Notes under the pieces: generated by a model
Database searches by the model: none
What the model saw: the letters and a program-made list of their open reading frames with translations, nothing else
Told to the model about the DNA's origin: nothing
Made by a program: the position numbers and the translations under genes
Source: Bacteroidaceae bacterium
Lineage (GTDB): Bacteria; Bacteroidota; Bacteroidia; Bacteroidales; Bacteroidaceae
Direction: 5' to 3'
DNA: 64,000 nucleotides
Assembly (NCBI GenBank): GCA_017427065.1
Contig: JAFRTL010000005.1
Location: 124,001 to 188,000, forward strand
Part shown: positions 29,832 to 38,635 of the stretch, piece after piece
Layout: every line of letters starts with the position of its first letter
Numbering within the stretch: the first letter of the stretch is position 1

Positions 29832-29969
29832 TATGAATTCAACTTATAGCATCGACATGCAGGAGGTTATTCCTAGCGATGTGCCAATTGTAAGTAGCCT
29901 CATCTGTTATGACTTGGGTTCTATAGAATAAGAAAATCTAAAAATTTAAACCTTATTTCAAAACCCACG

Positions 29970-32561
29970 TTACTTAAATCCATATTTTTGTTCTCGCTTT
30001 TCAAATGCGTCACGACCACCTTCTAGGATATCACAAACATGTTCACGAATTCCCTGTGAGTATAACACTGAGGGTTCTTTAAGGTTTCTTGATTTCGTGA
30101 ACTCTAAAGCACCATTAACATATTGAAATCTCAAACCATCTCTATTATGGCTATCAGACCCTTCTTGGTTAGCAACAATGACATTCTCAGAATCCGCGCT
30201 TACCACAACATTTGAATTGTGAGTGACGAGAATTATCTGTCGTTCTCTCTTTTTCTTTTTTATATAGGTTACCAATTCATTATAGATAGCTCTGTTATCA
30301 AGACTATCTTCAGGTTGATCTATTAAGATCGGGCATGTTTTTTCACTAAAATCTAATAGTAGTTTCAATATAACAAATGCCTGCTTTCCTTCAGACATTT
30401 GTTTAAACGAATCACCTTGGTAGAAAAGTTTATAGCCTAAACTATACCAACTCTTTGCGAAAAACTCTGTCGCAACATTTAATGCTTCATATCCATTCTT
30501 TAATTGTAACTCACCTAATAATAATTTCTTTAACAAGTCTTTTGCATAAGTGCTATTGTCACTATCATAGTTTCGTACTATTGTTGCGAGATATTCTTGA
30601 CGTTCAGAACCTCTAAGGTTTAATCTATCTTCCAAAAAATGTTGAAGAGTTTCACGATGATGTTCTAAATTAACTGTTATTGTCAAACCATCATAACTGA
30701 TATTTAGTTGATTTTTGACATCTTCTGCCATTTTTTTAATAGAACAATGTTGCTCAACAATTTCAACAAACAACTTGTCGAGTTCGTTCTTGATTTTAGA
30801 ATAGATAGACTGTAGTAGGTCTATTTGAGAGAGTTTCTTTTCTTCTGCAATTATTCTGTCATTAATATCTTTCAGTTCTTTATTACCTTCTATGTTTTTG
30901 ATACCATTAACGAAAGATTCCGACTCTTTAATTATACGGCACTGTTCAATAAGCTCATTCTTTACACGAATTGTATCATCTTGGAATTTCCTTACTAATG
31001 TTGCAAATTCTTGTTCTGTCCTTAATTTAATATTTTGAAATTCGCGTAACAAATCATATTGATTGAGTCCGAATGATAGTTTGTCCATTTGCCAGCGCTC
31101 CTCAAACGTGCTGTCGAAAGGAGATGTTATTAATAAATTCCCCAAAATTACTAAATCTTTGTCTGCATTTTCAATCTCATGGTTTAACCCGTTAAGCTTT
31201 CTTAGGTTAGCATCAAATAATGCTTGCTGTTCGGGAGTTATTTTGCTTGCTTTCTGTAATTCTTGTACTTTATCCTTCAATATATTAATCTGCTGTACGA
31301 CTCCGTCTCTTTTGCCTAAAGCCATTAATTCTTTTTTCTTTTCACAAAGTTCCTTTGAAGCCAGAAACAAGGAAAACATGCGTTCAGTAATGCGTTTAGA
31401 AGCGTCATTAATATGGTCATAATACATGCTAAGCATTCCTGATGTATCTTTATTGCGAATGATATTCTCAACTAGCTCACTCGTTTTGCTTGCATCAGAA
31501 GCTATATCATGCATGTAGCTTTGTTTAAAGAATTCTATTTCTCGACCTATTTGATTGGTTCCATCCTTCCATTGTACTGATACACCTTTAATATGCTTCA
31601 TTATAAAATCATCACTGACAACACTTTTATTTCCATGAACAGCTGCAATTGCTTTTAGCAATGTTGATTTCCCAGTAGATCGACCACCAATAATGGTGTT
31701 AAGGTTAGAATTAAAAAGGATAGTTCCTTTCCAGAAACCATCTTCGTCTAATGTTACTCGTTCTATTACCTGATATATGTTTTTATCATCAGGCATAGTC
31801 GTTTGAATTCGAACACGCTCATCTGGCTCATACATCACTTGTTTCAAACCTTCGAATGTTGGGTCGGCTTTGACCCACATTCTTTCCTTAATTTGGTAAT
31901 CTCGAATGTCGTGATTATCAGAGCACATAATGATAGGTAATGAGAATTTGATATCAGGAAAAACGAATTTTCTATAGCCATCCGCATCTTCAGGCTTGCC
32001 TACATCTAATAATGGATGAAAGCGGGATAATAGATCTTGCTTTAATTCTTGCTTAACAAGCAAGTGATTTTTTATGCTTTCTAAACTATTTGATTTGTTT
32101 CCTGCATGTACGGTCACAATTCCTCCTAATTCAAGAATAAGATTACACGTTTTTACAAACTCACAACAAACACGTTCATACCCTCCTCTCTTTTCAATAT
32201 CTGCTTTTGTCAGATTGCATTGACCTTGTATCTTAGTCCATATGCTTTCGAGGTCAGCATTATCTGGAAAAATCCCTATGAAATGAACAGCCTCTGAGCC
32301 TCCAAGTTCGGAACAAAACTCAATTCCTGGCAGTATATAAAGCCCTTTGGGCATTCCAAGAACTTTTAATTCATTAATCCTTTGGACATCAATTATATAA
32401 TGATCCGTAACAGCTACAACAGAAACACCATTATTGACAAGTCCGTTAACAATATCCTCATTGGTAACCGATTTATCTTTATAATCATGCGAAGCAGGTG
32501 TGTGTAGATGTAAATCCCATATTCTCCATTCAGAACCTCTATTCATATTGAAATCAATCAT
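29970..32561 (-). CDS. TrlF-type PHP domain + AAA/ABC ATPase
   Basis: An 863-residue two-part protein. The N-terminal PHP phosphoesterase domain shows DLHLHTP (16-22), VTDHY (51-55), PGIEF (about 79), VHAGN (151-155) and SDNHD (214-218), the metal-ligand blocks of that fold. An SMC/ABC-like ATPase follows: Walker A GRSTGKST (293-300), a long coiled-coil middle, Walker B with signature ILIDQPEDSLDN (from 745) and the switch His in VTHNSN. This matches the TrlF-family AAA-like ATPases, which often occur in defence islands. Nuclease or phosphatase action of the PHP part is inference. It is AT-rich compared with the DUF4249/TonB genes upstream. Confidence 0.82.
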   Translation of the reverse strand: MIDFNMNRGSEWRIWDLHLHTPASHDYKDKSVTNEDIVNGLVNNGVSVVAVTDHYIIDVQRINELKVLGMPKGLYILPGIEFCSELGGSEAVHFIGIFPDNADLESIWTKIQGQCNLTKADIEKRGGYERVCCEFVKTCNLILELGGIVTVHAGNKSNSLESIKNHLLVKQELKQDLLSRFHPLLDVGKPEDADGYRKFVFPDIKFSLPIIMCSDNHDIRDYQIKERMWVKADPTFEGLKQVMYEPDERVRIQTTMPDDKNIYQVIERVTLDEDGFWKGTILFNSNLNTIIGGRSTGKSTLLKAIAAVHGNKSVVSDDFIMKHIKGVSVQWKDGTNQIGREIEFFKQSYMHDIASDASKTSELVENIIRNKDTSGMLSMYYDHINDASKRITERMFSLFLASKELCEKKKELMALGKRDGVVQQINILKDKVQELQKASKITPEQQALFDANLRKLNGLNHEIENADKDLVILGNLLITSPFDSTFEERWQMDKLSFGLNQYDLLREFQNIKLRTEQEFATLVRKFQDDTIRVKNELIEQCRIIKESESFVNGIKNIEGNKELKDINDRIIAEEKKLSQIDLLQSIYSKIKNELDKLFVEIVEQHCSIKKMAEDVKNQLNISYDGLTITVNLEHHRETLQHFLEDRLNLRGSERQEYLATIVRNYDSDNSTYAKDLLKKLLLGELQLKNGYEALNVATEFFAKSWYSLGYKLFYQGDSFKQMSEGKQAFVILKLLLDFSEKTCPILIDQPEDSLDNRAIYNELVTYIKKKKRERQIILVTHNSNVVVSADSENVIVANQEGSDSHNRDGLRFQYVNGALEFTKSRNLKEPSVLYSQGIREHVCDILEGGRDAFEKREQKYGFK

Positions 32562-32875
32562 TATGTGTGTAATATTTCATTAAAGAGTCTTCTCAATATT
32601 GTTATCAGTGAATAATTCATTTACTATCATTAGTCATTACCTTCATGCCTCAGAATGCCTTTCTTTTGTTAAGTAGAAAGGTCGCACTCTATGGTGCATT
32701 GGTTCACCGCCAACTTCTTCGACATTTGTTTGTCGGTTATTGTCGGAGATCCCTTATTCTGGGTTGTTTGATTTATATTTAACTCGTTCCCATTATAATG
32801 GCGCACATATGAGTTTTTGTCATTAATGAATCATAGAATCTCTTAATAATAAACAATAATCTTTTAAAGATATGG
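32562..32875 (-). other. Gap with protein-like remnant
   Basis: A 314-base space between two minus-strand defence-like genes. The frame 32643-32753 (-) encodes NVEEVGGEPMHHRVRPFYL and KERHSEA before a TGA but has no upstream start. The neighbouring frame just before it also reads protein-like (YNGNELNINQTTQN). This suggests a frameshifted, decayed short gene. I do not recognise the family and it may be chance. Confidence 0.25.
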
Positions 32876-33403
32876 TTAATATATCTTATCAAGTAAACTT
32901 CTATAAGTAAGAGAATTCTCCACAGAAAAGGTATTGTTTCTTAACCATTCTTCATTAAAAGATTCAATATCAGTTCGCTCACATATAATCCTCACTACTT
33001 TTGCCCTATTAGTAAGGCATTCGATACAAGGTGCAAATGTTTTTCTAAAATGCCAATATTGTCGACACATTGCCTCAATTACATTTTTATCAGTTCCAAT
33101 CCTTATTATTTCAAGAATACTGTCCAATCTATTCATATCAAATCTACCATAAACATTTTCTTGTTGGACTTGATAGATATACTGCCCACTCCTACGTGCA
33201 AATAGTAGAGCGTCCTTCAACTCCATGAAAAGAAATAAAGCATTTCTTCTTGGTATTGTACAATTCTCCCTTGTGTTTTCCAGAAAGGTTTCCAGAACAT
33301 GTTTTTCTTCACAATCAAACCATTCTTGGTAATCTCTAGAAGGTTCAATCCATTCACCTTCTTCAAAAGCTCTGTTGTCAACTCTAAATAACATAATTTT
33401 CAT
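32876..33403 (-). CDS. Unknown 175-residue protein, third gene of Rex-like operon
   Basis: The start region MLFRVDNRAFEEGEWIEP, the middle IPRRNALFLFMELKDALLFAR and YIYQVQ recall ADP-ribosyltransferase-like small domains (DUF2441/DUF3990 style), where IPR(K)NxLFxF is followed by a helix and a strand. This resemblance is from pattern only and no catalytic triad is certain. It starts 14 bases after the stop of the RexB-like gene, so it belongs to the same transcript. It could be an effector or accessory factor of that system. Confidence 0.7.
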   Translation of the reverse strand: MKIMLFRVDNRAFEEGEWIEPSRDYQEWFDCEEKHVLETFLENTRENCTIPRRNALFLFMELKDALLFARRSGQYIYQVQQENVYGRFDMNRLDSILEIIRIGTDKNVIEAMCRQYWHFRKTFAPCIECLTNRAKVVRIICERTDIESFNEEWLRNNTFSVENSLTYRSLLDKIY

Positions 33404-33417
33404 TTTAAATAGTACAT

Positions 33418-33945
33418 TTATTTTTCCAATAAAATAGTCTGCCCGCTATTAAAAAGATCTATGACAACGCCAAAAATAACATTGACTGAATAGATCAATA
33501 AGTAACAGACAAAAAAGAAAATCGGATAGTTTATCACATTAGGACAATCTATTTCAATATTTAGATTAGCTAATAATGAAACGAAAACTAAAACAATGAT
33601 AGTCAAAACAGATAGTAACAAACATGCTGCAAAGCCTCCATTTATTGACTTAATTAGGTTGCGACCCTCTTCTGTTTGTTTCAATTTATCTTTGGCCTTA
33701 CCAAAAATAAAGGATAGCATGATAGTATATGCTGCTAATATAAAAGCAGTCATTGATGGAACAACTGATATACCTAAATTTAAAAGAAATTTAATCTGGA
33801 TAGTTATATCATTTTCTGTCAAATAAATCATTATACATAAAACTATAGAAATAATCATAGGAATAATACTATCCTTAATGAAGCCATTCCGTCCATAGTT
33901 CTTTATCACATTACACAAACCGAATACTGAATCTTTCTTTTTCAT
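33418..33945 (-). CDS. RexB-like four-TM protein
   Basis: A 175-residue membrane protein with four hydrophobic segments (about 26-43, 58-81, 102-126, 139-163). The start is the ATG at 33945; a TTG three codons upstream is less likely. The layout matches remembered lambda RexB, a 144-residue four-TM ion-channel protein. TM2 is followed by a charged linker (GKAKDKLKQTEEGRNL; in RexB a similar basic stretch after LIG), then TM3 and TM4, ending FGVVIDLFNSG against RexB FQLYNL. It begins five bases after the stop of a RexA-sized gene. No alignment could be run. The safe call is a 4-TM protein in a probable defence operon. Confidence 0.72.
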   Translation of the reverse strand: MKKKDSVFGLCNVIKNYGRNGFIKDSIIPMIISIVLCIMIYLTENDITIQIKFLLNLGISVVPSMTAFILAAYTIMLSFIFGKAKDKLKQTEEGRNLIKSINGGFAACLLLSVLTIIVLVFVSLLANLNIEIDCPNVINYPIFFFVCYLLIYSVNVIFGVVIDLFNSGQTILLEK

Positions 33946-33950
33946 GTTTA

Positions 33951-34829
33951 TCAATTATTATGTCCGAAGATCAGACTAAATTCTCTATAAATTGTGGAAC
34001 ATATATTGTTTATAATTAGTGGAATCACTATAACACGAGGATGTTCACTGCTATCAATATTTTCTAATCTTGAGCTTTCTGTAGATTGAATGGTGGCTTT
34101 AACGTTGCCATCCTGTTCTGCCATATTCACTAAAGCCTCTAAAAGACCATCTTCTTTTCTCAGAAGAGGATATTCTGAAGTTCCAGAAGCAATTACAGAT
34201 AATTTATCTGCCCCCATGTCTTTGATTTCTTTTTCGAAAACAGATTGGAAACCTTTAGTATTACCTGGATTAGAGTAAGAGATATTAGCTTCAATCCTCA
34301 TAACTGCGTGTGCTTTCAATATTCTATCTAATACATCTCGCTCTACAATAGCACTCACATCAAAGCCATCAGGTTCAATTATATTCAGTGCCTCTGACAG
34401 ATATTTGATGATATTATTTAAGGAGATATCACTTGACCTCTTAACCGCAATTATATGAATAGAAGGAATAAAGATTAATTCAGCTTCGCGTTTGTTTGCA
34501 ACAATATCAGTATCCCAATTATCTATAGTTATGTCTTCACGGCTCCTTCTATTATAAAAGGCGTCTGGGTCAATTATTGTATATGCAAGAAGAGTCAAAT
34601 TAATCCATAGGGGGGTAGACTCTTTATCAAGTATCTCACTGAATACTATAGACTTCAGACTTTCACATCTGTTCCTGTCAAGTTCTACAAGCGGATCCTG
34701 CTGAAGCAAACTATTAAAAGTACGTACATAATGAGCAGTGTTTTGCTCTCTCCTTGCCTTGATGTTAATTGCATACCAAGTCGTTTGGCGCCTTAAAATT
34801 CTGTTCTCATTCGGATTTTTCATATTCAA
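33951..34829 (-). CDS. RexA-like (DUF4747/DUF6731-like) protein
   Basis: A 292-residue soluble protein with no TM segment. It begins with an amphipathic strand and helix, TWYAINIKARREQNTAHYVRTFNSLLQ. Remembered lambda RexA (279 residues) has the same order, FYATYRSKN...INLSVFLNSLL. Near residue 180 VMRIEANISYS and FEKEIKDMGADKLSVIASG recall RexA TTVKVEAKL and LGATDIEGELFDSLDIVI. The gene leads a three-gene operon whose second member is a RexB-like 4-TM protein, as in rexAB. RexA senses phage infection and opens RexB. This reading is inference from architecture and remembered sequence; NCBI may call it DUF4747 or hypothetical. Confidence 0.72.
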   Translation of the reverse strand: MNMKNPNENRILRRQTTWYAINIKARREQNTAHYVRTFNSLLQQDPLVELDRNRCESLKSIVFSEILDKESTPLWINLTLLAYTIIDPDAFYNRRSREDITIDNWDTDIVANKREAELIFIPSIHIIAVKRSSDISLNNIIKYLSEALNIIEPDGFDVSAIVERDVLDRILKAHAVMRIEANISYSNPGNTKGFQSVFEKEIKDMGADKLSVIASGTSEYPLLRKEDGLLEALVNMAEQDGNVKATIQSTESSRLENIDSSEHPRVIVIPLIINNICSTIYREFSLIFGHNN

Positions 34830-34884
34830 TTCATTTCTTAATATATTATTATGACCATCTCTTTAAGCAAATTCATTTATATCT

Positions 34885-35976
34885 TTAATCCCCATACTCC
34901 ACGAAGTGCCTGTCATAACTTAGGGCACCTAGGATGCCCCAACCATTCTGCACGTTGCTTGGAATAAGAATAGGTTCAGCATCACGGTCATTCCCTGTTA
35001 TTCGGTAAAGCTGCATTGCTTTCAGGAACTTGTAAAGGTCTTCAGAGATGGCTTGAAGTTCTACCATTACACGAGGGGCTATCTCTGGTATTTCATCACG
35101 TGATGTTTTGTTAGAATTTAATACATCTGATGATATGTATGCCTTCGGACTGTCTATGGTGAAGGTTCGCCCTGATGCTAAAGTGCCATCGAAGACATTG
35201 GAAAAGTAGGCCGGCCACCCGCCAAAGCTTTGTGTCAGACGATTATCAGTGAACAACTCATCATTAGAGAAATAGACATCCTGCATCACATAATAATGAT
35301 AGTACAATCGTTGCCACCCATCGTCTTTCCAATACTGCTCAGAGGTCTTCAGTGTCTGGCTGCGTTCACTCCTGACACGTAGGCGGTAGTAGCTGTTCTC
35401 TCCACCGCCAGAAATACGGCACCTCAGTCGCATGATGGTGTCCGACTGGTTCACCAGTCCTGCCATGTCAAGATAGGGGTTCTCCGCTAACACCTCATGG
35501 CCTATGATCTCAATACTGGGCTTGGTAGGCACCACCGTCTCAACACTCAGTTCACGTCCACCACTCACAGCCTTCACCCTGATGCGGTCGCCCTCCTGAG
35601 GGACGTACCTGCAGGTATAGCAGATTCCCTGCGCGTCATAAGACATCGGGTAGCTTTCCTGCCCGTTCACCTCCACCGTTACCTCTGCATCCCTCACGGC
35701 CGTTTTGGCCAGATAGTCGTCCGTCAGGTAGTCGGTCGTGAGGTCGTCCTTAAAGAGGACGGCATGCTCATAGTCGTAGTACTGAATGGACGGTACCTTG
35801 TCTATCTGGTAAGCTCGGCTCAGATAGACCGTCAGCGGGGTGCCGACGACGGCCGTGCCGTTGATCACCAAGTCGGTGGCCTTCTCATTCTCGGGACCCT
35901 CGAAGTCGAGCGTCCGCTCACAGGCACTGCACAGCAGCGCCGACAACAGGAGTAGTATAGGATATCTATTTTCCAT
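34885..35976 (-). CDS. DUF4249 lipoprotein (locus 1)
   Basis: A 363-residue outer-membrane-type lipoprotein (LLLLSALLCSAC-ERTLDFEGPE) of the DUF4249 family, the usual partner encoded behind a group of TonB-dependent receptors. It is probably a surface-exposed substrate-binding or lid subunit, in the manner of SusD; that role is inference. A conserved stretch is VNGQESYPMSYDAQG with YVPQEGDRIRVKAVSGG, and it ends GILGALSYDRHFVEYGD. The paralogue at 50331 shares this end and the CERTLDF start. It follows the receptor gene after seven bases. Confidence 0.92.
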   Translation of the reverse strand: MENRYPILLLLSALLCSACERTLDFEGPENEKATDLVINGTAVVGTPLTVYLSRAYQIDKVPSIQYYDYEHAVLFKDDLTTDYLTDDYLAKTAVRDAEVTVEVNGQESYPMSYDAQGICYTCRYVPQEGDRIRVKAVSGGRELSVETVVPTKPSIEIIGHEVLAENPYLDMAGLVNQSDTIMRLRCRISGGGENSYYRLRVRSERSQTLKTSEQYWKDDGWQRLYYHYYVMQDVYFSNDELFTDNRLTQSFGGWPAYFSNVFDGTLASGRTFTIDSPKAYISSDVLNSNKTSRDEIPEIAPRVMVELQAISEDLYKFLKAMQLYRITGNDRDAEPILIPSNVQNGWGILGALSYDRHFVEYGD

Positions 35977-35983
35977 CGTTTTC

Positions 35984-38635
35984 TCAGAGTTTAAGTGTCA
36001 GACTTATGAAAGGCATGATGGGGAACATGCAGACGCCCTTCAGCTCTGGGCGGCTGCCAGTATAGCCCCAATAGACCGAGGAGACGTTCTGCTGGTTGTA
36101 AAGGTTATAGATGCCCAGATCGCATATCATCTCACCGATGCCTATGCTGCCGTGGTGACTCAGGCTCACGTCAAGACGGTGCACGGCAGGTAGTACGTAG
36201 CTATTGCGCTGTCCGTAGGTACTTGTACGTACTAGGTGCTGCACATAGGTGTCATTATAGTAGGCAAGCGTTATGTCTGCATAGGCAGGGTTGCTGCCGT
36301 AGTCGATGTCACTGCCGTCAGAGGTAGTGGGATAGTAGTTGTTGTACTCGTCAAAGACCTGTCCCACCAGCGTGGTGGTGGCGAAGGTCACGCGCCTGCC
36401 GCTCTGGATAGTCCATGCAGCTGACAGATCCCAGTTTTTGCTCAGGCGCTGGCTGATGCTCACATTGAAATTGTGGCGTCGGTCGCCCGAGGCGTAGAAC
36501 TCGCGCCCATCGTTGAGCACCATGCCCTCGCGGTCGAAGGTGCGGAGCGACTTGCTCCACGTGTAGCCCACCATCCCCGTGGTGTTGCCTATGGTCTTCT
36601 GCGCCAGTAGCTCCACGCCGTAGGCGCGTCCGCGTCCCTGCGCCGCCAGCTGGCTCCACGTGCTTTCCGTATAGAGCGAGGCACCCTCTCGGTACTCTGT
36701 CATGCCGTCCAGCCACTTGTAGTATCCTTCCACGGAGAGCTGTATGCCGCCTTTCAGCTCATGGCTGAGTCCCATCGACACTTGGTCGGAAGTACTGGGC
36801 TTCATCTTCCTGTCCATAGCTACCCATACTTCTGAGGGGGCAGTCAGGCTACCACTGCTCAAAAGGAACATGCCCTGCGACATGCGGGCATACGAAGCCT
36901 TCAGTGACGTGGATCTGCCCAATGACAGGCGCAACGAAGCCCGCGGCTCCAGCAGGAGTGAGCTCCTGCCGTCGGCATTATAGCCCTGCAGGCGCAAGCC
37001 GAGGTCTGCCTTCAGCCAGGGGGCCATCGTCCAGTCGTCCTCGGCATAGGCTGAGAAGGTCGTCAGCGTGCCCTTGCCTGTGACGAGGTTGGTCTTCCCG
37101 CTCTCTGACGTAGTATAGCGGTCGTCGCCCAGTCCCACGTTCCAGACAATCTGCTCGCTCAGTGCGGCCTTATGCCACGTATGCCGGCCTGCTTCCATCG
37201 TAGGTGTCAGTCTCAAAGTGCTGCCCTGCAACCCAAAGTGTAGATCATGGCGCTCGGGCAGCGTGTATGTAAGCTCCGCCCTTGCGCTCATGTCGTCCAC
37301 CTTGGAACGGTAGGCCGTCAGGCTCTCCGTGATGGTCTGCGAGTAGAGTTCTGCACCGTCATGTCCATGGTTCCATAGGTCGATTCCCACCCAACTGTCA
37401 GCGTAGGTGGCATGGCTGAGGCGGTAGTCGTAGCCGCTGTAGCTCGCGGAGGCGTCGAACCTGAGTGAAGGACTGAGCTGGTGCGTGTAGAGCAGACCGC
37501 CCAATAGGTTGTTCCAGTTGTTGCGTGTCTCACTGCGTTTTACATTGTCTATGTAGCCCTGCTTATCACTGGAGGTACTTCCGTCAGGATTCCAGCGTAT
37601 GTTCTTGTCGTAACGGTAGTTCTGGCTGGTCTCCAGCGGCGTGGCATTGTTCACGTCGTGTCCCATGTAGAACACAGCGGAGAGCCTTGCATCCTCAGAG
37701 AACCTATGCGTCAACTTGGCATTTACGTCGAAGTAGCGCATGTGGGCGTAGTCGTTCATCTGCCCGGGGTTGTCGTAGATCACCTCCTCCAGCATCGGCT
37801 TCACGATGGCGTTGAAGTAGGATACGCGGGCTGCTATATTATAAGAGGTGTGTCCCTTCCACAGCGGCCCTTCTGCCTGCAGGCGTGAGGAGAGCATGCC
37901 CGCAGTGACTGAGAGGCGGTGGCGCTGCATGTCGCCCTCGCGCAGGCTCACATCCACCACGCTGGAGAGTCGAGAACCGTAGCGGGCGGGGAAAGCTCCC
38001 TTGTAGAGCACCACGTCATCCATCACCTCGGCATTGACGGCAGAAGTGAAGCCCTGCAGGTGCTCGGGGTTGTAAAGCGTGATGCCATCGAGCGTGAACA
38101 GGTTTTGATCCTGCTCGCCGCCGCGCACATATATGCCAGCCTTGCCGTCGCCTGCCGACTGCACGCCTGGCAGTCTCTGCAGTGACTTCAGCACGTCAGT
38201 CTCACCCAGCAGTACGGGCATCTTGCGTACCTGCTCGGCACTCACGGCTATGGCGCTCATCTGCGAGCTCTGGATGCCGAAGTTGTGGCGCGTGCCATAG
38301 ACTTGCACTTCGCTCAGGTTCTGCGTGTCCTGTCGCAGCTGTATGTCCAGCTTCGTGTCACGTGTCAGCGTTAGCGTCTGCGTCTCGGAGGCGTAGCCCA
38401 CGTAGCTGAACACCAGTTCCAACGGCCTTCCGCTGGGCAGGGTGATGGTATAGCGCCCCGTGGTGTTGGTGGTGGTACCCGTACGGCGGTCGGTGTTATA
38501 GACCGTCACGCCAATCAGGGCCTCACCTGTGGCGGCATCCGTCACCTGCCCGCTCAGCACCACATTCTGGGCACTGAGGGAGGAACATAGTAGTGTGAAT
38601 AATACTGTGATGTAACAGTTTCTATGCATTTTCAT
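35984..38635 (-). CDS. TonB-dependent receptor with carboxypeptidase-like domain (locus 1)
   Basis: An 883-residue outer-membrane receptor. After the signal peptide comes a CarboxypepD_reg-like domain (VVLSGQVTDAATGEALIGV, GRYTITLPSG, VFSYVGYASE), then the plug (MPVLLGETDVLKSLQRLPGV, GIYVRGGEQDQNLFTLDGI) and a beta-barrel ending FISLTLKL. It imports an unknown substrate with TonB energy. The gene is clearly more GC-rich than its neighbours on both sides. It is a paralogue of the receptor at 47721, most similar in the plug and in the last 100 residues (GSIGIGEMICDLGIYNLYNQ). Confidence 0.96.
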   Translation of the reverse strand: MKMHRNCYITVLFTLLCSSLSAQNVVLSGQVTDAATGEALIGVTVYNTDRRTGTTTNTTGRYTITLPSGRPLELVFSYVGYASETQTLTLTRDTKLDIQLRQDTQNLSEVQVYGTRHNFGIQSSQMSAIAVSAEQVRKMPVLLGETDVLKSLQRLPGVQSAGDGKAGIYVRGGEQDQNLFTLDGITLYNPEHLQGFTSAVNAEVMDDVVLYKGAFPARYGSRLSSVVDVSLREGDMQRHRLSVTAGMLSSRLQAEGPLWKGHTSYNIAARVSYFNAIVKPMLEEVIYDNPGQMNDYAHMRYFDVNAKLTHRFSEDARLSAVFYMGHDVNNATPLETSQNYRYDKNIRWNPDGSTSSDKQGYIDNVKRSETRNNWNNLLGGLLYTHQLSPSLRFDASASYSGYDYRLSHATYADSWVGIDLWNHGHDGAELYSQTITESLTAYRSKVDDMSARAELTYTLPERHDLHFGLQGSTLRLTPTMEAGRHTWHKAALSEQIVWNVGLGDDRYTTSESGKTNLVTGKGTLTTFSAYAEDDWTMAPWLKADLGLRLQGYNADGRSSLLLEPRASLRLSLGRSTSLKASYARMSQGMFLLSSGSLTAPSEVWVAMDRKMKPSTSDQVSMGLSHELKGGIQLSVEGYYKWLDGMTEYREGASLYTESTWSQLAAQGRGRAYGVELLAQKTIGNTTGMVGYTWSKSLRTFDREGMVLNDGREFYASGDRRHNFNVSISQRLSKNWDLSAAWTIQSGRRVTFATTTLVGQVFDEYNNYYPTTSDGSDIDYGSNPAYADITLAYYNDTYVQHLVRTSTYGQRNSYVLPAVHRLDVSLSHHGSIGIGEMICDLGIYNLYNQQNVSSVYWGYTGSRPELKGVCMFPIMPFISLTLKL

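Follow-up and report, generated by a model that had tools for sequence, protein, structure and literature searches.

Gene cluster A–C and its genomic setting

The window, which is the whole 64,000-nucleotide stretch of DNA that was analysed, contains three closely spaced minus-strand genes, designated A, B, and C, and a TrlF-family gene next to them (Table 1). The preliminary description had reported three tight genes of 292, 175, and 175 residues separated by 5 and 14 bases, and all of these were present as open reading frames. The 292 residues of gene A are counted from a TTG codon, and a possible ATG start at 34823 would give 290 residues. Gene B has 175 residues from an ATG at 33945, from which the 5-base spacing to gene A is counted, and 178 residues from the TTG used in the list of open reading frames. 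Gene C has 175 residues, and the gap of only 14 bases between B and C does not fit a terminator hairpin between these genes. Genes A and B have counterparts, 35% and 32% identical, respectively, in a gene pair from a second genome of the genus, and a gene 46% identical to gene C occurs in yet another of its genomes. This conservation indicated that A, B, and C are real genes.

Table 1. Positions of the A–C cluster, the adjacent TrlF-family gene, and the surrounding variable stretch in the window
Feature	Position	Strand	Description
Gene A	33951..34829	-	Soluble protein with DUF4747; putative RexA-like sensor of infection
Gene B	33418..33945	-	Four-TM protein; RexB-like putative pore
Gene C	32876..33403	-	DUF2441-related protein resembling the ART clan; probable separable passenger
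TrlF-family PHP/AAA ATPase	29970..32561	-	NCBIfam NF045780, E 4.5e-148, over cut-off; PADLOC Ppl, E 2.5e-28
Variable stretch (TrlF, C, B, A)	29914..34884		Bordered by the lpd/PH-domain genes on one side and a DUF4249/TonB pair on the other

The TrlF-family neighbour is related to the Ppl anti-phage protein and lies 314 bases from gene C. A reading of the TrlF-family gene and genes A, B, and C as one single system was unsupported.

We compared the locus with G417, the closest relative among the genomes compared, whose lpd is 97% identical. Contig 87 of G417 matched the window at 90.7% up to position 29913, and the match resumed from 34889 (57 bases, 87.7%) at the end of the DUF4249 gene. Between both matches, G417 contains six other open reading frames of at least 110 residues (L064 5144-12186), including the PADLOC candidates PDC-M11A (E 5.5e-148), PDC-M11B (E 3.6e-46), and PDC-S31 (E 8e-19). 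From this one comparison, the stretch beside lpd and the PH-domain gene looks like a variable defence-gene hotspot. Confidence is higher for the left border than for the right, because DUF4249 genes (window 34885-38635) are multicopy, with 7 matches in the window genome and 12 in G417, and because the best G417 copy of the DUF4249 region (88% over 34889-38584) is located on another contig. The multicopy DUF4249 genes are a possible source of recombination beside the stretch.

The GC content of the genes was 0.29-0.35 in the variable stretch, 0.47 in lpd, 0.51 in the DUF4249 gene, and 0.58 in the TonB gene. Calculated over 500-base segments, it was 0.28-0.38 across 30.0-35.0 kb, 0.44-0.50 on the left (27.0-29.5 kb), and 0.47-0.61 on the right (3.5 kb). 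Low GC is not special to the variable stretch, since comparably low values (0.30-0.42) recur between 38.5 and 46 kb.

DUF4747 in gene A and its four-transmembrane partner

Gene A matched the Pfam family DUF4747 (PF15931; E 4.2e-14, 53 bits with a cut-off of 27, residues 22-264 of 292), no other Pfam family up to E 10, and phrog_10040 in PHROGs (E 5.1e-11). It was the only DUF4747 match in its own genome assembly, which is 83% complete. Searches with gene A gave no match to the Pfam RexA family PF15969, to PADLOC RexA, or to any PDB entry. Lambda RexA itself matched PF15969 only (E 1e-97). DUF4747 motifs have been reported, as weak HHpred matches, in lambda RexA, Sbash gp30, and CarolAnn gp44 (PMC7542560, PMC6426606), and Butters gp30 is reported to show a weak DUF4747 match as well (PMC7542560); each of these proteins is described as paired with a four-TM partner (PMC7542560, PMC6426606).

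Gene A and lambda RexA were 14% identical in a MAFFT pair alignment. The RexA likeness had originally been argued from the FNSLL and VEA motifs; NSLL does occur in both proteins and the VEA of RexA appears as IEA in gene A, but neither motif is in register in the alignment, and they consequently carry no weight. Profile comparisons of the Bacteroidota A set were at noise level both for lambda RexA (E 0.31, matched by 14 of 60 shuffles) and for actinophage RexA (E 0.47). A comparison of lambda RexA with the actinophage RexA profile (CarolAnn/Sbash/Sejanus/DumpsterDude), which served as the positive control, was also without signal (E 0.47, matched by 23 of 60 shuffles), so that the profile test is powerless for RexA homology. 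For the RexA fold, an RdgC-like two-domain dimer represented by PDB 8TWQ and 2OWL, the AlphaFold2 model of gene A from single-sequence input gave no reliable structure (pLDDT 31). With the profile comparisons at noise, the relation of A-B to Rex rests on the published DUF4747 link, the pairing of the genes, and their layout.

The hydrophobicity of gene B agreed with the initial proposal of a four-TM protein with the RexB layout: a crude Kyte-Doolittle scan gave four hydrophobic peaks, and the TM2-TM3 loop is positively charged (6 K/R and 3 D/E; 5 K/R and 1 D/E in lambda RexB). This layout and the charged loop also resemble those of CarolAnn gp43. Up to E 10, gene B had no match in Pfam, and hence none to the RexB model PF15968. 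In PHROGs, the B proteins leaned toward phrog_20580, with E 1.4e-5 for that of L002, 0.0023 for L009, and 0.0012 for the window. Against a RexB profile, the match of gene B covered TM2 and the loop after it (E 0.019), with a score reached by none of 60 block shuffles, which we read as a hint of a profile relation to RexB. Against an actinophage RexB profile it gave E 0.086 (2 of 60 shuffles reaching the score); the control, RexB against the same profile, gave E 0.37 with 18 of 60 shuffles reaching the score and a reversed alignment scoring higher. The TM2-TM3 loop of gene B contains K82-A-K-D85 (numbered without the first Met), a motif similar to R70-V-K-D73 in the corresponding loop of Sbash gp31, of which the R70A and D73A mutants are reported to be defective in defence (PMC6426596). 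K-A-K-D was not conserved in the other Bacteroidota B proteins. In the B protein of L003, the automatic placement of hydrophobic peaks missed the third helix.

We then surveyed DUF4747 genes in overlapping sets of genomes. DUF4747 was found in 5 of 395 Bacteroidota genomes sampled across the phylum, including the window genome (4 above the cut-off), in 2 of 158 genomes of the genus, again including the window genome, and in 3 of 92 genomes of the family of G250, which were the same three as in the phylum sample; in the order, the window genome itself was the only one of 295. One locus (L005 in G145; E 8.1e-4, below the cut-off, four internal stops) was excluded. The other intact genes belonged to G492, of the same genus (L009/L010), and to G250, G227, and G364, of one other genus. 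According to reading and tblastn, a B-like gene directly followed A in all four of these loci, with 6 bases between the two genes in L009 and an overlap of 23 bases in L002 and of 11 bases in each of L003 and L004; since three come from one genus, the four loci are effectively two independent contexts. The association of A with B proposed at the outset was therefore upheld in the other intact Bacteroidota loci.

The G492 pair (L010) is located amid genes resembling, by eye, phage structural and packaging genes; one fragment from these surroundings (L009 2872-3708) matched no Pfam family. In L002, L003, and L004, a patatin-like gene (PF01734, tested in L002 only) precedes A-B and could be functionally linked to the pair or simply adjacent to it. 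Searches of the phage collection by tblastn gave no match for A, B, or C, and none for the versions of A in L009 and L002. Scans of viral contigs found no relative of A, B, or C, and the genome-contig collection contained no relative of gene A.

The gene layout observed here fits equally an arrangement like that of phage Butters, in which A itself would be antiviral and B would hold or tune A at the membrane rather than act as a killing pore. Butters gp30 alone is reported to block phages, with gp31 attenuating gp30 (PMC7542560). In contrast, the lambda, Sbash, CarolAnn, and Pseudomonas putida systems are described as dependent on both genes, the effector being the membrane partner (PMC12894663), and we regard the Butters-like arrangement as unlikely for A-B.

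Gene C and its link to the A-B pair

Gene C had no Pfam match up to E 10, and its close relative had none to PF10386 (DUF2441) up to E 1. In PHROGs, gene C matched phrog_5663 (E 4.5e-5), which its 46% relative did not reach. A profile of gene C and the close relative matched the DUF2441 set with E 2.1e-4 and a score of 32.7 (shuffle maximum 21.7; none of 60 reached the score). DUF2441 is reported to belong to the Pfam ADP-ribosyltransferase (ART) clan (PMC7955679). Among distant relatives of gene C, those of L016, L018, and L039 matched PF10386 and that of L017 did not; seven residues (G16, E38, R52, Y116, W117, P125, and E128) were invariant across gene C and four relatives. The His of the first motif is replaced by Arg in gene C (Arg7) and in the close relative; this position is His in L018, phiES15, and the solved DUF2441 structure PDB 2AUA, Arg in L017, and Phe in L016. 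These comparisons lean toward a relation of gene C to the DUF2441 group and the ART clan. The ART-like pattern initially proposed for the third gene was retained to the extent of this leaning, which falls below the Pfam model. Profile A4 matched 2AUA (E 4.9e-6), but this is not independent evidence for gene C because the relatives alone (profile A8) scored E 1.9e-12.

Other candidate assignments were rejected. A phmmer match of gene C to uridylate kinase (E 0.009) was regarded as due to chance, with profile A4 giving only E 0.78. Among the Foldseek matches of the weak model of gene C, proteasome subunits, Ebp1, IspD, and a Staphylococcus aureus protein (E 3.2-8.4) were regarded as noise, and the matches listed included no classical ART enzyme.

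Relatives of gene C occurred in 2 of 198 genomes in one sample, including the window genome, and in 3 of 158 genomes of the genus, including the window genome and one spurious case; in the phylum sample, the window genome itself was the only one of 198. The genome-contig collection contained one contig with a relative (Bacteroides sp. UBA939), the same contig as that of the genus relative, and tblastn gave no match in plasmids. The spurious case of the genus (L036, 20 bits) was discarded, as on inspection it lies in a 382-residue open reading frame unlike gene C.

The close relative (L008) is flanked by a Fic gene (PF02661) and a 282-residue gene, near a gene that by eye is tail tape measure-like; this cassette (L008 5339-7397) is possibly a prophage-borne module for defence or with a toxin function. 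A PIN-like assignment of the 282-residue gene, made by eye, was unsupported by Pfam, PHROGs, PADLOC, and NCBIfam. In L021 (4657-7380), a phrog_5663 relative of gene C lies approximately 1.1 kb after a 384-residue gene that by eye resembles SIR2. In Cronobacter phage phiES15 (L039 1-3327), the DUF2441 gene follows, according to the annotation, genes for a Ser/Thr kinase, a PP2C phosphatase, and lysis.

We considered whether gene C is a third component of a Rex variant, in which an ART-fold, NAD-linked C would prime, restrain, or replace the sensor step of A-B. The 14-base gap, the shared strand, the similar low GC, and the leaning toward DUF2441 and the ART clan point in this direction. However, a tblastn search (E up to 0.05) of the regions of 14-18 kb that hold the other four A-B pairs (L010-L013) gave no match to gene C, the close relative in L008 is without A-B and is overlapped by the 282-residue gene by 4 bases, and the first-motif His is replaced in both close members. 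The earlier suggestion that gene C is an added Rex component was not sustained by these neighbourhoods, and we consider a three-component variant improbable. If this unproven idea were true, NAD-linked chemistry would gate a membrane-pore suicide switch in a chromosomal, bacterium-owned Rex system. Gene C is probably a separate passenger; on the one case of L008, it may be mobile independently of A-B, and its position after B may be due to chance or recent.

A putative RexAB-type system in Bacteroidota

We interpret A-B, with a probability of approximately 0.7, as an abortive-infection pair of the RexAB type that occupies a defence hotspot on the chromosome of a Bacteroidota bacterium. Gene order, protein families, layout, and the hotspot were observed directly in this analysis. 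A functional analogy of A-B to Rex is well supported, and A-B probably works like Rex. The preliminary description of a RexA/RexB-like pair stands with respect to DUF4747 in gene A and the abutting four-TM gene, but not with respect to the RexA and RexB families themselves. That A-B is instead an ordinary membrane or regulatory pair or a prophage remnant, unrelated to phage exclusion, is the least probable reading, for although no direct homology to lambda RexA/RexB is demonstrable, the published DUF4747 link, the defence-type neighbourhood, and the conserved pairing argue against it.

By analogy with the published relatives, the protein encoded by gene A would be a cytosolic dimer sensing the infecting phage, either as phage DNA or as a phage protein. 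It would act on B, probably via the TM2-TM3 loop, and B would open as an ion channel, whereupon the membrane would depolarise, ATP would fall, and the infection would abort. Gene C would probably be a separate ART-fold, DUF2441-related accessory with its own role. Non-specific DNA binding by the soluble dimer has been reported for lambda RexA, Sbash gp30, CarolAnn gp44, and Toast gp42 (PMC11077077), and phage-challenge data exist for the actinophage systems Sbash, CarolAnn, and Butters (PMC7542560, PMC6426606, PMC6426596). Two reports count against the proposed mechanism: a two-hybrid analysis of the P. putida system showed no binding between RexA and RexB (PMC12894663), and the authors of the Sbash study doubt DNA as the trigger of that system (PMC6426596).

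Five RexAB-like systems are described in a 2026 report (PMC12894663), namely those of lambda, Sbash, CarolAnn, Butters, and P. putida prophage P1. Undescribed homologues have also been noted, with Sbash-like pairs in genomes of mycobacteria and Rhodococcus (PMC6426596) and rexA as an orphan gene outside prophages (PMC11077077), and a 'DUF4747/CarolAnn' operon has been counted as an immune operon downstream of 17 of 443 capK homologs (PMC13373217). Our literature search, covering titles and abstract openings with subscription journals mostly outside its scope, found no RexAB-like system of Bacteroidota. What is new here is a Bacteroidota member of an already known RexAB-like kind. This lineage, with one copy amid phage-like genes (L010) and another in a chromosomal defence spot (the window), would add genetically tractable gut-type bacteria to the range of the Rex switch and would point to its use as a bacterial defence.

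Like lambda RexA/RexB, the pair consists of a soluble gene followed by a four-TM gene with a positive central loop, and the DUF4747 match of gene A has its counterpart in the DUF4747 motif reportedly carried by RexA. It differs from the lambda pair in the lack of Pfam RexA and RexB matches, in the low identity of gene A to RexA, and in having no adjoining repressor gene among the neighbours inspected. With CarolAnn gp44/gp43 and Sbash gp30/gp31, A-B shares the combination of a DUF4747-type cytosolic protein and an abutting four-TM protein. Gene A is approximately 80 residues shorter than its counterparts in CarolAnn and Sbash, and A-B is located in a chromosomal stretch of a Bacteroidota bacterium rather than in an active phage. 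Whereas CarolAnn gp44 matched no Pfam family by HMMER up to E 10 and has only the weak published HHpred match, gene A matches DUF4747 directly, and the best label for A-B is a Bacteroidota DUF4747-4TM (CarolAnn-type) system.
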